From positions 1-33,334 of the forward strand of contig VBEZ01000106.1 in assembly GCA_005882255.1 (NCBI GenBank): a stretch of 33,334 nt of DNA. The letters are read 5' to 3'. The notes below the pieces were generated by a model. It was not told the origin of the DNA and did no database searches. It worked only from the letters and a program-made list of their open reading frames with translations. Every line of letters starts with the position of its first letter. Position 1 is the first letter of the stretch. This document shows, in pieces, positions 5,327 through 32,575 of the stretch. The stretch is from Chloroflexota bacterium (GTDB lineage Bacteria > Chloroflexota > Limnocylindria > P2-11E). A program made the translations under genes and the position numbers.

Positions 5327-6503
5327 CCAGGCCCTGCCCGACGCCGATGCACATCGTCGCGATGCCGTAGTGGCCGCCGCGCCGTTCGAGCTCGCGCAGC
5401 ACGGTCCCGGCGAGCCGGGCGCCGGACATCCCGATCGGATGCCCGATCGCGATCGCGCCGCCGTTCGGGTTGGTGCGGTCGTCGGGCAGGTGGAGCGCGC
5501 GAATGCACGGGATCACCTGTGCGGCGAACGCCTCGTTCAGCTCGATCGCGTCGCACTCGTCGGGCGCGACGCCGGTGCGCGCCGCGAGCTTGCGCACCGC
5601 GGGGATCGGGCCGAGACCCATGTAGTCGGGATGCACGCCGGCCGAGGCCGCGGCGACGACGCGCCCGAGCGCGCGCAGTCCCAGCTCGCCCGCCGTCTCG
5701 CGCGCGGCGAGGATGAGCGCCGCGGCGCCGTCGTTGATGCCGGATGAGTTCCCGGCGGTGACCGTCCCGTCCGCCTTGAACGCGGGCTTGAGCTTCGCGA
5801 GCTTTTGGACGGTCGAATCGGGACGCGGATGCTCGTCCTCGTGCACCAGCGTCGTGCCGTTGTGCACGGGCGCGATCTCCGTGGCGAAGAAGCCCTCGGC
5901 CTTAGCCTTCGCGTAGCGCTGCTGGCTGCGCGCCGCGTATTCGTCCTGCTCCGCGCGCGAGATCTTCTCCTTCACGCGGACGTTCTCCGCCGTCTCGCCC
6001 AGCGAGATCGGGTGATAGCCCAGATCGACCATGCGCGGATTGACGAGACGCCAGCCGAGCGTGGTGTCGTACAGGACGCGCTCGCCGCGCGGGAACGCCT
6101 CCGATGGTTTCAGCGTCACCTGCGGCGCGCGGGTCATGCTCTCGACGCCTCCGGCGATGACGATGTCCGCCTCGCCCTCACGGATACGGCGCGCCGCGTC
6201 GTTGACCGCTTCGAGACCGGACCCGCACAGTCGATTCACCGTGACGCCTGGCACCGAGTCGGGGAGGCCGGCGAGGAGCGCCGCCATACGCCCGACGTTC
6301 CGGTTGTCCTCACCGGCCTGATTCGAGGCGCCGAAGACGACCTCGTCCACCTGATCGTCGCCGATGTCGGTGCGCTCGAGCACGGCGCGGATGACGTGGG
6401 CGGCGAGGTCGTCCGGCCGGATCTGCGCGAGCGCGCCGCCGTAGCGACCGATCGGCGTGCGCACGTATCCGAGAACAACCGCATCGCGCGGGTGGCGGCT
6501 CAT
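5298..6503 (-). CDS. paaJ/pcaF: Acetyl-CoA acyltransferase, 3-oxoadipyl-CoA thiolase type
   Basis: This thiolase cleaves 3-oxoacyl-CoA with CoA; the PcaF/PaaJ type converts 3-oxoadipyl-CoA to succinyl-CoA and acetyl-CoA. It has 401 residues from the ATG at 6503, chosen because GAGGGA lies about 10 bases upstream; a TTG at 6521 would overlap the previous gene. The catalytic Cys93 is in NRLCGSG, His355 in IGHPIGMSGA and Cys385 in MCIGVGQG. YDTTLGWRLVNPRM matches the DTTIGWRFVNP region that marks the 3-oxoadipyl subgroup. It is the last gene of the ech-paaG-thiolase operon, 4 bases after the paaG-like stop. A broader beta-ketothiolase role is possible. Confidence 0.88.
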   Translation of the reverse strand: MSRHPRDAVVLGYVRTPIGRYGGALAQIRPDDLAAHVIRAVLERTDIGDDQVDEVVFGASNQAGEDNRNVGRMAALLAGLPDSVPGVTVNRLCGSGLEAVNDAARRIREGEADIVIAGGVESMTRAPQVTLKPSEAFPRGERVLYDTTLGWRLVNPRMVDLGYHPISLGETAENVRVKEKISRAEQDEYAARSQQRYAKAKAEGFFATEIAPVHNGTTLVHEDEHPRPDSTVQKLAKLKPAFKADGTVTAGNSSGINDGAAALILAARETAGELGLRALGRVVAAASAGVHPDYMGLGPIPAVRKLAARTGVAPDECDAIELNEAFAAQVIPCIRALHLPDDRTNPNGGAIAIGHPIGMSGARLAGTVLRELERRGGHYGIATMCIGVGQGLATLFERESA

Positions 6504-29024: not shown

Positions 29025-29727
29025 GGCCGCGCTCATCGCCTGGCGCGAGATCCGCTGGGAGATCTTCGGCGACCGCGGCGCGATCATCCGCACCGGTTTC
29101 TTCGCGCTGCTGCCGATCCTGTTCGTGCTGAGCGGGCGCGGAACGGGCCCCGGCGGACCGAACGAGATCTCGATGCTCGTCCTCGCGCTGCAGAGCACGC
29201 TCATCCCGGCGCTCTCCGGCGTCGCGCTCATCGCCTCGACCTTCACGCAGGAGAAGGAGAACGGCACGCTCGTGCCGCTGCTCGCGTCGCCGGTGCGCGA
29301 CCTCGACATCGTCGTCGGCAAGCTGCTGGGCATGGTCGGCCCGGTGATGGTCATCTGCACCGGCAGCCTCACCGTCTACTACGTGCTCGCCTCGGCGCTG
29401 TTCGGCGCGGCGCGCGTCCGCGAGGCGCTACCGCCGCAGATCCTCTTCGCGCTGCTCGTGGTCGCATTCCTGTATCTGATCACCGCGGGCAGCTGGGTGC
29501 TCATCATCGCCGCGATCGTTCGCACGACGCGCGCCGGCCAGCAGATCGCCGGTCTCATGATCGGCATCTCAGCGGCGATCTTCGCCGTCCTCGGCGTCGG
29601 CGCCGCGCGCATCGCGGACGGCTGGGCGCTTGTCGGCCTCGGTGTCGCGTTCGTCATCGCGGACGTCGTCGCGCTCGAGGTCGCCCGCCGCGTGTGGCAG
29701 CGCGGCGAGGTCATCGGTCGACTTTGA
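29017..29727 (+). CDS. ABC-2 type exporter permease
   Basis: This is a membrane subunit of 236 residues, partner of the ATPase just upstream. ATG 29017 gives MGKAALIAWREIRWEIFGDR, the cytoplasmic N-terminal helix of ABC-2 permeases. About six hydrophobic segments follow, with the conserved coupling region ASTFTQEKENGTLVPLLASP (the EKExGTL motif). No large extracellular loop is present. It may act as a homodimer. The 3' end lies 22 bases from the convergent SIMPL-domain gene. Confidence 0.88.
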   Translation: MGKAALIAWREIRWEIFGDRGAIIRTGFFALLPILFVLSGRGTGPGGPNEISMLVLALQSTLIPALSGVALIASTFTQEKENGTLVPLLASPVRDLDIVVGKLLGMVGPVMVICTGSLTVYYVLASALFGAARVREALPPQILFALLVVAFLYLITAGSWVLIIAAIVRTTRAGQQIAGLMIGISAAIFAVLGVGAARIADGWALVGLGVAFVIADVVALEVARRVWQRGEVIGRL

Positions 29728-29749
29728 ACTCGCGTTCCGCGACGGGGCG

Positions 29750-30470
29750 CTAGGGGGCAAGCTCCCACTGCACTTGCACTCGGACGACGACCTGAGGCGC
29801 CCTTGATAGCCCCGTCGACGGTCGGCGTGAGGCCGATGTCGTTGACGCTGATGACCTTCCCGAGCTGCACGCCGGCGGTCGTTGCCATCGCCTGCGCTTT
29901 CGCGCGGGCGTCTTGGATCGCCTGTTCGCGCGCGCTCGCCTGCGCGGCTTTGGCGTCGAGGAGCGCGAATGCCACCGTCGCGGTGGTCGCGGCGTCACCG
30001 CCCTGGACGAGTGTGTCCAGCGCCTTGCCGACGCCGTCGGTGCCGTGGAGCGTGAGGGCGATCTGTTGCGATGCCTGGAATCCGGTGAGCCGGGGCGCTT
30101 TGCCCTGTTCGTACGCGTACTGCGGATCGATGCGGTAGGAGACCGTCTTGGTGTCGCTATCGGCGATCGCCAGGGCTTTCGCACGTTCGAGGATCTTCGC
30201 GATCCGCCCGGAAAGCTGCGCCTGCGCTTCGTCCGCCGTCGCCTCCTGCGCGATGGTCCCGACGGTGACGATCGCGCCATCGGGCTTCGCCTTCACGGTC
30301 GCGTCGCCGGTCGTGACGATGCCGGGCGGGATGACCGCGTTGACCGGAAGCGAGAGCGCGGGCGCGAAGGTCGTCGCCTGAGCGGGCGCCTTGGCAGCGA
30401 CGACGAGTGCAACCACCAGGAAACCGAACACGAGGACCACGATGAGTGTCCGTTGGAAGAGCGTGAACAT
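29750..30470 (-). pseudogene. SIMPL-domain (DUF541) envelope protein with a C-terminal frame break
   Basis: This is a secreted or membrane-anchored protein of the SIMPL/DUF541 family. ATG 30470 follows GGGAGGG. A hydrophobic anchor (IVVLVFGFLVVALVVAA, about residues 10-26) precedes TTGDATVKAKPDGAIVTVGT and YRIDPQYAYEQGKAPRLTGF, the family motifs. The first frame is good to KVISVNDIGLTPTVDGAIKG (about base 29795). The natural last strand, PQVVVRVQVQWELAP, with stop at 29750, lies in another frame. The first frame otherwise runs on antisense through the permease gene, which is implausible. A one- or two-base error, or loss of part of the linker, would explain it. Confidence 0.75.
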
Positions 30471-30556: not shown

Positions 30557-30585
30557 TTGACGGACCCGCACTGGCCCGTTAACGT
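30557..30585 (+). promoter_or_regulatory. Sigma-70-type promoter for the leader-ilvE-pheA transcript
   Basis: TTGACG at 30557-30562 and TAACGT at 30580-30585 are separated by exactly 17 bases, close to the -35/-10 consensus. The predicted transcript would start around 30592, only a few bases before the leader-peptide ATG at 30596, so the leader would be nearly leaderless. This matches the absence of a ribosome site in front of it. Confidence 0.65.
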
Positions 30586-30595
30586 TCGCGTCCTC

Positions 30596-30670
30596 ATGGC
30601 ACGCAGCGTGTTCTTCGTCATCGTTATCGAGCTCCCCAGGGGAGCCGGCGGAGGAGGCGCGCTCAGCTAG
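30596..30670 (+). CDS. Attenuator leader peptide of the ilvE-pheA operon
   Basis: This 24-codon open frame reads MARSVFFVIVIELPRGAGGG and ends ALS at TAG 30668-30670. Codons 5-11 are Val-Phe-Phe-Val-Ile-Val-Ile, followed by Glu-Leu, and include one GTT, an uncommon codon here. The operon downstream makes branched-chain amino acids (ilvE) and phenylalanine (pheA), exactly the residues in the run. It starts just after a good promoter, probably on a near-leaderless message, and a terminator hairpin lies between it and ilvE. These are the hallmarks of ribosome-mediated attenuation, as for ilv and phe leaders in other bacteria. The peptide itself is expected to have no other function. Confidence 0.7.
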   Translation: MARSVFFVIVIELPRGAGGGGALS

Positions 30671-30706
30671 CGGAACGGACAGCACCAGCGGAATGAAGCC
30701 TCCCGA
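30631..30706 (+). promoter_or_regulatory. Alternative RNA pairings of the ilvE-pheA attenuator
   Basis: GCTCCCC (30631-30637) can pair with GGGGAGC (30639-30645) just after the Ile/Val codons, although the loop must open a few pairs. GGAGGC (30653-30658) can instead pair with GCCTCC (30698-30703), the 5' arm of the terminator. A ribosome stalled on the Val/Ile/Phe codons would block the first hairpin and favour the second pairing, preventing the terminator. This is the classical 1:2, 2:3, 3:4 arrangement. The antiterminator is short (six pairs), so this part is the least certain. Confidence 0.5.
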
Positions 30707-30727
30707 AGTCGGGAGGCTTTCCTGTTT
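30696..30727 (+). terminator. Rho-independent terminator hairpin upstream of ilvE
   Basis: AAGCCTCCCGA (30696-30706) and TCGGGAGGCTT (30709-30719) are perfect complements around a tiny loop (effectively ten pairs with a four-base loop), followed by TCCTGTTT. It lies after the leader-peptide stop and before the AGGAGG ribosome site of ilvE, inside the operon's own transcript. It therefore acts as an attenuator rather than an end-of-operon signal. Confidence 0.75.
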
Positions 30728-30743
30728 CTAAGAGGAGGAAGCG

Positions 30744-31718
30744 ATGGCCAGCAGCGTTCACGAACGGATGAAGGAGACGGCGGCGCTCGGGACGGAGATC
30801 CCCGAGACCGGCTGGGCCTACCAGGACGGCGTGTTCAAACGACTTGCCGACGCGCACGTCAGTCTCGCGACGCACGCCCTCAACTACGGCACCGGCGTCT
30901 TCGAGGGCATCCGCGCGTATTGGAACGCCACGCAGGAGCAGCTCTACGTCTTCCGGTTGCGGGAGCACTTCGAGCGCATGCGTGACAACTGCAAGCTGCT
31001 GCGCATCGAGCTGCCGGGCGACAGCGCGGCGCTGTCCGAGGTCACGCTCGAGCTCCTGCGCAAGAACGAATTCCGTACCGACGTCTACATCCGGCCGCTC
31101 GCGTACAAGGCCGCGCGCTCGATCAAGGTCGCGCTGCACGACCTGCGCAGCGGTTTCGGCATGTTCGCGTTCCCGATCGGCGCGTATCTGCCGACCTCCG
31201 GACTCGCCGCCCGTACCGCGACCTGGCGGCGCACCGCCGATGACGCGATCCCGGCGCGCGGAAAGCTGACCGGCGCGTACATCAACACCGCTCTCGCGGT
31301 GGACGAGGCGCACGATGCGAACGCCGACGAGTCGATCTTCCTCACGCGCGACGGCCACGTTTCCGAGGGCGGCAGCGCGAACCTGTTCATGGTCCGCGGC
31401 GGCGAGCTCATCACTCCCTCGGTCACCGACGACATCCTCGAGGGCATCACGCGCGACACGGTCATCGCGATCGCGCGCGAGGAGCTCGGCCTCACCGTGA
31501 CCGAGCGCGCGATCGATCGCACCGAGCTCTTCATCGCCGACGAGGTCTTCTTCTGCGGGACCGGGGCGCAGGTCGCGCCGTGCGTGAAGGTGGACGGTCG
31601 CGAGGTCGGCGACGGGGCGATCGGCCCGGTCGCGCGCCGGATCGGGGACGTCTACTTCGCGATCGCGCGCGGCGACGACAAGCGCCACGCCGCGTGGCGC
31701 ACGGCGGTCCAGCGCTGA
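30744..31718 (+). CDS. ilvE: Branched-chain amino acid aminotransferase
   Basis: This is a fold-type IV PLP transaminase, 324 residues, catalysing the last step of Val, Ile and Leu synthesis. ALNYGTGVFEGIRAYW near the N-terminus, YIRPLAYKAARSIKV, the PLP lysine in RGKLTGAYINTALA, and SEGGSANLFMV with the following phosphate-binding segment are characteristic. AGAGGAGGA lies six bases before ATG 30744. The gene follows the leader peptide and terminator described above and overlaps the start of pheA. No frame break is seen. D-amino-acid or aminodeoxychorismate-lyase members of the fold are less likely given the BCAT motifs. Confidence 0.92.
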   Translation: MASSVHERMKETAALGTEIPETGWAYQDGVFKRLADAHVSLATHALNYGTGVFEGIRAYWNATQEQLYVFRLREHFERMRDNCKLLRIELPGDSAALSEVTLELLRKNEFRTDVYIRPLAYKAARSIKVALHDLRSGFGMFAFPIGAYLPTSGLAARTATWRRTADDAIPARGKLTGAYINTALAVDEAHDANADESIFLTRDGHVSEGGSANLFMVRGGELITPSVTDDILEGITRDTVIAIAREELGLTVTERAIDRTELFIADEVFFCGTGAQVAPCVKVDGREVGDGAIGPVARRIGDVYFAIARGDDKRHAAWRTAVQR

Positions 31719-32575
31719 GCGTCTCGTATCAGGGCCTGGCCGGTGCGTTCTCGGAGGCCGCCGCCGCGGCGCTGTTCCCCGACCAGAAGCTCCTGCCGCG
31801 TCGCACCTTCTCCGAGGTCTTCGACGCGCTCGAGAATGGAGAAGTCGACGCGGCGGTCGTGCCGGTGGAGAACACGCACGCTGGATCGGTCGCCGACGTG
31901 TACGACCTGCTGCGCAACCACAGCGGTGTCCGCATCGTCGCCGAGGCCGTCGTGCGCGTGCGTCATTGCCTTCTGGCCGTGCCCTGGGCGAGGATCGAGG
32001 ACATCAAGATCGCGCGCTCGCACCCGCAGGCGCTCGCGCAGGTCGAGGACTTCCTGCGCACGGCGAGGATCCAGCCGGAGGTCGCCTACGACACCGCGGG
32101 CGCGGCGGCCGACATCGCCGCGTCGGGCGATCGCACCGTCGCCGCGGTCGCGAGCCGCCGCGCCGCCGAGCGGTACGGGCTCAAAGTCCTCGCCGAGTCG
32201 ATCGAGACGAGCCCGGATAACTTCACGCGCTTCTTCGCGCTCGCGCGCGATGGCGACGACAGCGTGGCGCACCGCGTCCCCGCCGCGCTCCTCACCGGTC
32301 CGTGGAAGACGAGCGTCGTCTACGCCGCGGCGAACGTGCCCGGCGCGCTGACGCGCACGCTTCAGCCCTTCGCGACGGCCGGCGTGCAGCTGACGAAGAT
32401 CGAGTCACGGCCGAGCCGCGCCGGGCCCTGGGACTACGTCTTCTACCTCGACTTCGAGGCCGACCCGCGGACCTCGCCGGCGCGCGAGGCGCTCGCGCTG
32501 ATGCGGACGTGCTGCGAATGGGTGCAGCCGCTCGGGACGTACCGCGCCGCGACCACCGTGCTCGAGCCCGACTGA
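31694..32575 (+). CDS. pheA: Prephenate dehydratase with C-terminal ACT domain
   Basis: This enzyme converts prephenate to phenylpyruvate in phenylalanine synthesis. SVSYQGLAGAFSEAAAAALF opens the domain, VVPVENTHAGSVADVYDLL is the conserved PxEN...GSV motif, and NFTRFFAL contains the catalytic Thr-Arg-Phe. The ACT domain has PGALTRTLQPFA and KIESRPS (the ESRP Phe-binding motif), so feedback inhibition by phenylalanine is expected. There is no chorismate mutase domain. The start is uncertain: GTG 31694 is the first standard codon (293 residues), while CTG 31715, overlapping the ilvE stop as CTGA, better matches the usual N-terminus. Confidence 0.9.
   Translation: MAHGGPALSVSYQGLAGAFSEAAAAALFPDQKLLPRRTFSEVFDALENGEVDAAVVPVENTHAGSVADVYDLLRNHSGVRIVAEAVVRVRHCLLAVPWARIEDIKIARSHPQALAQVEDFLRTARIQPEVAYDTAGAAADIAASGDRTVAAVASRRAAERYGLKVLAESIETSPDNFTRFFALARDGDDSVAHRVPAALLTGPWKTSVVYAAANVPGALTRTLQPFATAGVQLTKIESRPSRAGPWDYVFYLDFEADPRTSPAREALALMRTCCEWVQPLGTYRAATTVLEPD

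Follow-up and report, generated by a model that had tools for sequence, protein, structure and literature searches.

The ilvE-pheA locus and its leader

The window analyzed here is positions 1 to 33,334 of contig VBEZ01000106.1 of a Chloroflexota bacterium, whose assembly comprises 2.7 Mb in 252 contigs. It carries an ilvE-pheA gene pair preceded by promoter hexamers, a small open reading frame (the leader) and an intrinsic terminator, which lies between the leader and the first structural gene, ilvE. The features are as follows:

30557-30562, + strand: -35 hexamer TTGACG, read from the sequence
30580-30585, + strand: -10 hexamer TAACGT, read from the sequence (TAGCGT in most relatives)
30596-30670, + strand: leader ORF MARSVFFVIVIELPRGAGGGGALS, ATG at 30596, 24 codons, stop codon TAG at 30668-30670; frame conserved
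30608-30628, + strand: control codons Val-Phe-Phe-Val-Ile-Val-Ile (codons 5-11), read from the sequence
30611-30619, + strand: part of region 1, UUCUUCGUC, base-paired to region 2 when the RNA is free
30631-30645, + strand: small hairpin GCTCCC-CAG-GGGAGC within the leader, stem kept in 11 orthologues
30647-30658, + strand: region 2, GGCGGAGGAGGC, 5' arm of the antiterminator; GGAGGC conserved
30695-30720, + strand: terminator hairpin, stem of 11 bp, loop of 4
30698-30704, + strand: region 3, GCCTCCC, within the terminator hairpin
30711-30717, + strand: region 4, GGGAGGC, within the terminator hairpin
30718-30729, + strand: interrupted T-rich tail following the terminator stem
30744-31718, + strand: ilvE, branched-chain amino acid transaminase, 324 aa (NCBIfam NF005146/TIGR01122, above cut-off)
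31715-32575, + strand: pheA, prephenate dehydratase (NCBIfam NF008865, above cut-off)

The family matches bear out the gene identities proposed in the initial annotation of this DNA. The start codon of pheA is probably the CTG at 31715-31717, which overlaps the ilvE stop codon; the corresponding codon in relatives is GTG or TTG. The promoter that had been described, with a 17-nt spacer between TTGACG and TAACGT, is confirmed in its coordinates as a set of sequence parts. The 24-codon leader contains the seven control codons, followed by Glu-Leu. The terminator hairpin stands as annotated; its tail (CCTGTTTCT) is only moderately T-rich. Because the leader ATG lies about 10 nt 3' of the -10 hexamer, the leader would be leaderless or nearly so.

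Only 2 of the 473 small-ORF starts in the window have a run of at least seven Phe, Val or Ile codons, and both belong to this leader frame, one being a longer start of it. No Rfam family (T-box or other leader families) matched the window at gathering score.

Conservation in related genomes

Pairs of ilvE and pheA are present through the family of the host genome (f1). We located the leaders of relatives by their position before ilvE, not by structure. Leaders precede ilvE in G002, G003, G013, G016, G018, G020, G022, G023, G024 and G025, and variant leaders in G004, G008 and G009. Most of the relatives' leaders retain TTGAC (G002 lacks it), TAGCGT and the spacing to the start codon, which again falls about 10 nt past the -10 hexamer. 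In the scan of named genomes, Chloroflexi bacterium isolate CF_64 was the single close relative with IlvE (97% identical). We found no leader before ilvE in G026 and G006, and no such leader at the second ilvE copy of the host genome or at the ilvE-pheA pairs of another family in the class (G086, G100). The initial annotation had proposed comparing the leader frame and hairpin across relatives, and its reading survived this comparison: before ilvE, further genomes of the family keep the leader with its promoter spacing as well as the terminator and the antiterminator arm.

Two loci depart from this arrangement. In G027 (L064 / L203, G027:C298) the promoter and terminator are kept before ilvE-pheA and the leader is gone; either the switch has decayed or the assembly is at fault. 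In G008 (L045, ~1299-1430) the leader is enlarged to 43 codons; this looks like the insertion of a GC-rich inverted repeat that removed most control codons.

In the alignment of 11 leaders, 64 of the 66 codons at positions 5-10 have T as their second base, the first base varies (G, A or T with a single exception), and the invariant columns are spaced three apart over the control codons. Because position 2 is almost fixed as T while position 1 varies, the alignment shows selection on codon identity, that is, for Val, Ile, Phe or Leu codons rather than for a fixed RNA sequence. The pairing arms GGAGGC (region 2), GCCTCCC (region 3) and GGGAGG (region 4) do not vary across an alignment with a mean identity of 71%, and covariation within the orthologous set is therefore slight. 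In G022, G023 and G025 the leader stops just 5' of GGAGGC, and the motif is retained there though untranslated, so it is conserved at the RNA level.

Alternative folding of the leader RNA

In the free RNA of the window, the control codons UUCUUCGUC are paired to GGCGGAGGA and the terminator forms separately (z = -2.1). Equilibrium folding of the full-length leader RNA favoured the terminator in most species. It is thus little informative on the switch, which must be kinetic, and we instead folded the nascent RNA up to the terminator loop with a ribosome at various positions in 11 genomes.

For the window, stalls at codons 4-14 gave a region 3-region 2 pairing of 0.70-0.93, and the value was 0.07 without a ribosome. 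With the ribosome at the stop codon it was 0.00 in all 11 genomes. In the relatives, region 3 pairs with region 2 at most stall positions and elsewhere at few (late codons in G003, G023 and G025). The folding thus reproduces the alternative pairings of the initial annotation, as a switch between region 2-3 and region 3-4 pairing. The antiterminator is predicted to exclude the terminator; a ribosome stalled on the control codons would free it, and one that has reached the stop codon would block it. The ribosome-free nascent RNA strongly prefers the antiterminator in five relatives (G013, G016, G018, G020 and G022) and partly in G002, so in the models the untranslated basal state is not uniformly "off"; the state without translation may differ between species.

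Phenylalanine codons and pheA

All 12 leaders of pheA-containing operons have Phe codons, as does 1 of the 24 branched-chain leaders of operons without pheA or not known to contain it. The Fisher p of 1e-8 for this linkage is not corrected for ancestry and, because the species are related (the 12 leaders fall into three genera), is not an independent-event probability. Among the other pheA genes of the family, those without an adjacent ilvE were inspected for Phe leaders and none was seen. IlvE produces the branched-chain amino acids, and in E. coli it can also transaminate phenylpyruvate, the product of PheA. Since IlvE could in this way complete phenylalanine synthesis, one leader reading Phe together with Val and Ile would fit the products of an ilvE-pheA operon, by analogy with E. 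coli. The match to both products was the central claim of the initial annotation, and the tie of Phe codons to pheA supports it.

Alternative explanations

The attenuator could be real and yet sense branched-chain amino acids only, its Phe codons being incidental hydrophobic codons with T at position 2. Val and Ile codons do outnumber Phe in most leaders, and some leaders of pheA operons have a single Phe, at the end of the run. We nevertheless consider this improbable, given the 12-of-12 against 1-of-24 distribution and the case of G004, where ilvE stands alone, pheA is on other contigs, and the leader (MSRVVVIVVIASVGSVSDTGEGGARS) has Val and Ile codons without Phe.

Less probable still is that the leader works through translational coupling or Rho-dependent termination rather than an intrinsic terminator switch. 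Leader genes elsewhere can act via Rho or reinitiation (PMC4833913), and the T-tail here is interrupted; but all aligned orthologues have a strong hairpin with a T-rich tail whose formation is exclusive with region 2 pairing, and the leader stop codon is ~70 nt from ilvE, far for reinitiation. As for a chance small ORF beside an ordinary terminator, the sheer number of small-ORF starts in the window speaks for it, but the conservation of frame and position in relatives rules it out, leaving it a negligible probability. Moreover, the neighbouring gene on the upstream side (29379-30470) runs on the opposite strand, which leaves no adjacent + strand gene in need of this terminator, and the leader and terminator sit between the promoter and their own operon.

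Proposed mechanism

We are confident that the region is a ribosome-mediated transcription attenuator, a class to which the leader can be assigned on all sequence features tested. It very probably switches ilvE-pheA on when Phe, Val and Ile are short. From the sequence, we infer the transcription start, termination, stalling and response to each amino acid as follows. RNA polymerase would start a few bases 5' of the leader AUG, and translation of the leader, which has no Shine-Dalgarno sequence, would follow immediately. A shortage of charged Phe-, Val- or Ile-tRNA would make the ribosome stall at codons 5-11 and cover region 1. Region 2 would then pair with region 3 before region 4 is made, no terminator would form, and ilvE-pheA would be transcribed. 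When amino acids are plentiful, the ribosome would reach the stop codon and cover region 2, so that regions 3 and 4 would pair and transcription would terminate.

A recurrent cassette in the order

We scanned the family genomes for the pattern region 2, 22-52 nt, region 3, region 4. Most genomes contained matches (1-5 each), and the reversed control pattern was almost absent. We also searched with a covariance model of the 11 leaders and read its matches individually; some of these (for example L184, L194, L196 and L161) were chance-like on reading. Among the matches are further leaders, presumably near-leaderless, with the stop codon just past GGAGGC and, in most leaders found, a -10 hexamer ~4-11 nt before the start codon (positions from sequence). 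The cassette, comprising a presumably near-leaderless leader, a GGGAGGC antiterminator arm and a GCCTCCC terminator, recurs through the order.

A G precedes GGAGGC in 42 of 51 pattern matches, though the pattern did not require it. Covariation is seen between the base flanking the core antiterminator pairing and its partner 3' of GCCTCCC (C-G 17, T-A 8, T-G 5; Fisher p = 0.009). A few chance matches and related genomes enter both sets of counts. His, Thr, Leu, Trp/Phe, Cys and branched-chain runs suit the genes they precede, which speaks for the attenuator reading. The leaders and their targets are listed below; the names aspartokinase, asd, leuA (L183) and DAHP synthase come from reading N-terminal sequences, not from a family search.

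His run, before hisZ-like: L099, L105, L112, L113
Val/Ile/Leu run, before ilvB: L108, L109, L107, L158
Val/Ile/Leu run, before PucR-ALS-like-ilvC-leuA: G000 C212; start of the same gene order in G001 C4
Leu run, before leuA: L183
Thr/Ile run, before aspartokinase: L190
Thr run, before aspartate-semialdehyde dehydrogenase (asd): L193
Trp/Phe run, before DAHP synthase: L148
Met/Ile/Pro-rich leader, before threonine synthase: L120, L123, L127, L091, L116
Leu/Ile run, before MocR-like aminotransferase: L100, L126
Ala run (VTKVRSSAAAATAAGGGG and similar), before glutamate synthase large subunit: L206 (G000:C62), L207, L208, L174, L178, L187, L195
Cys/Met run, before PucR-type regulator: L121, L103

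In the threonine synthase leaders the abundant residues are Met, Ile and Pro, not Thr. A 16-kb contig of the host genome (G000:C212, L131) carries three more attenuators on the minus strand, with matches near 5611, 7868 and 12140: a branched-chain leader before PucR-ALS-like-ilvC-leuA, a Met leader before thrC and a Cys/Met leader before a PucR-type regulator. A tandem arrangement, in which an attenuator, a small PucR-type HTH regulator and a second attenuator precede ilvB/ALS-like, occurs at L175 (G006), L188 (G007), L182 (G011), L176 (G015) and L133 (G001). In G004 (L067 / L044, G004:C162), two divergent attenuators lie back to back, before ilvE and a PucR-like gene.

Beyond the order, additional cassette matches were nearly absent from a phylum sample of 121 genomes, and those other than G140 look like chance, as judged from the matched sequence only. 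In G140, from a distant family, a small ORF rich in Leu, Val, Ile and Phe (L214) ends at GGAGGCTAG before a GCCTCCC terminator; by its sequence it looks like a real attenuator, possibly a convergent one. At L153 (G037) and L160 (G031), in another family of the class, attenuator-like leaders (LITGSRRE) come with a terminator of different sequence, CCCTCGCC.

We lean, with little more than even confidence, towards an order-wide regulon in which one cassette has been copied across the genome and retuned via the codon run only (Phe+Val/Ile, His, Thr/Ile, Leu, Trp/Phe, Cys, Met, Ala). Part of it would drive small PucR-type regulators, so that an attenuator of local effect would come to signal amino-acid starvation in trans.

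Comparison with known attenuators

Ribosome-mediated attenuation is a textbook mechanism, known chiefly from Proteobacteria and from some Actinobacteria. Like the proteobacterial attenuators (pheL-pheA, ilvL-ilvGMEDA, thrL, hisL, trpL), the locus has a leader with control codons, regions 1-4 and mutually exclusive antiterminator and terminator. One leader reading several amino acids also has a parallel in thrL, which reads Thr and Ile. Unlike the proteobacterial systems, it combines Phe and branched-chain codons before ilvE-pheA, its leader is apparently (near-)leaderless, it comes from the phylum Chloroflexota without an Rfam match, and one GGGAGGC/GCCTCCC cassette is common to many operons.

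The trp, ilvBNC, leuA and aroR leaders of Corynebacterium glutamicum are reportedly leaderless (Neshat et al. 2014). The actinobacterial leaderless attenuators resemble the present ones in leader translation from the 5' end, which is predicted here, in the TAnnnT -10 and TTGACn -35 elements, and in operon types (ilv, leu, thr, aromatic). They differ in that the antiterminator and terminator here are complete and form one common sequence cassette, and that the targets here are ilvE-pheA, hisZ, gltB and PucR-type genes. Actinobacterial ilv, leu, cys and trp leaders have been described (PMC1262725); LeuL1 has no typical terminator, and attenuation of ilvB is disputed (PMC8079986, PMC1262725). The promoter consensus of Streptomyces lividans, TTGACn / TAnnnT, is the same as here (PMC8079986). 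Near-leaderless leader translation had been put forward as unusual in the initial annotation. The position of the start codon agrees with it, the transcription start being placed from the promoter, but near-leaderless leader peptides are not new: leaderless leuL, ilvL and others are reported in S. lividans (PMC8079986).

Searches of an open-access library found no account of such attenuation as a general system of the Chloroflexota, although single Chloroflexi attenuators may have been mentioned before. The new elements are the Phe plus branched-chain leader on ilvE-pheA, the common cassette across pathways and the attenuators before PucR-type regulators. Attenuation appears to control amino-acid operons widely in this uncultured order of soil Chloroflexota. 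Its leader peptides are a directly readable record of the amino acids sensed per operon, for instance Phe with Val and Ile, and their codon runs can guide the annotation of target pathways. The cassette before PucR-type regulators suggests a link between attenuation and regulation in trans.
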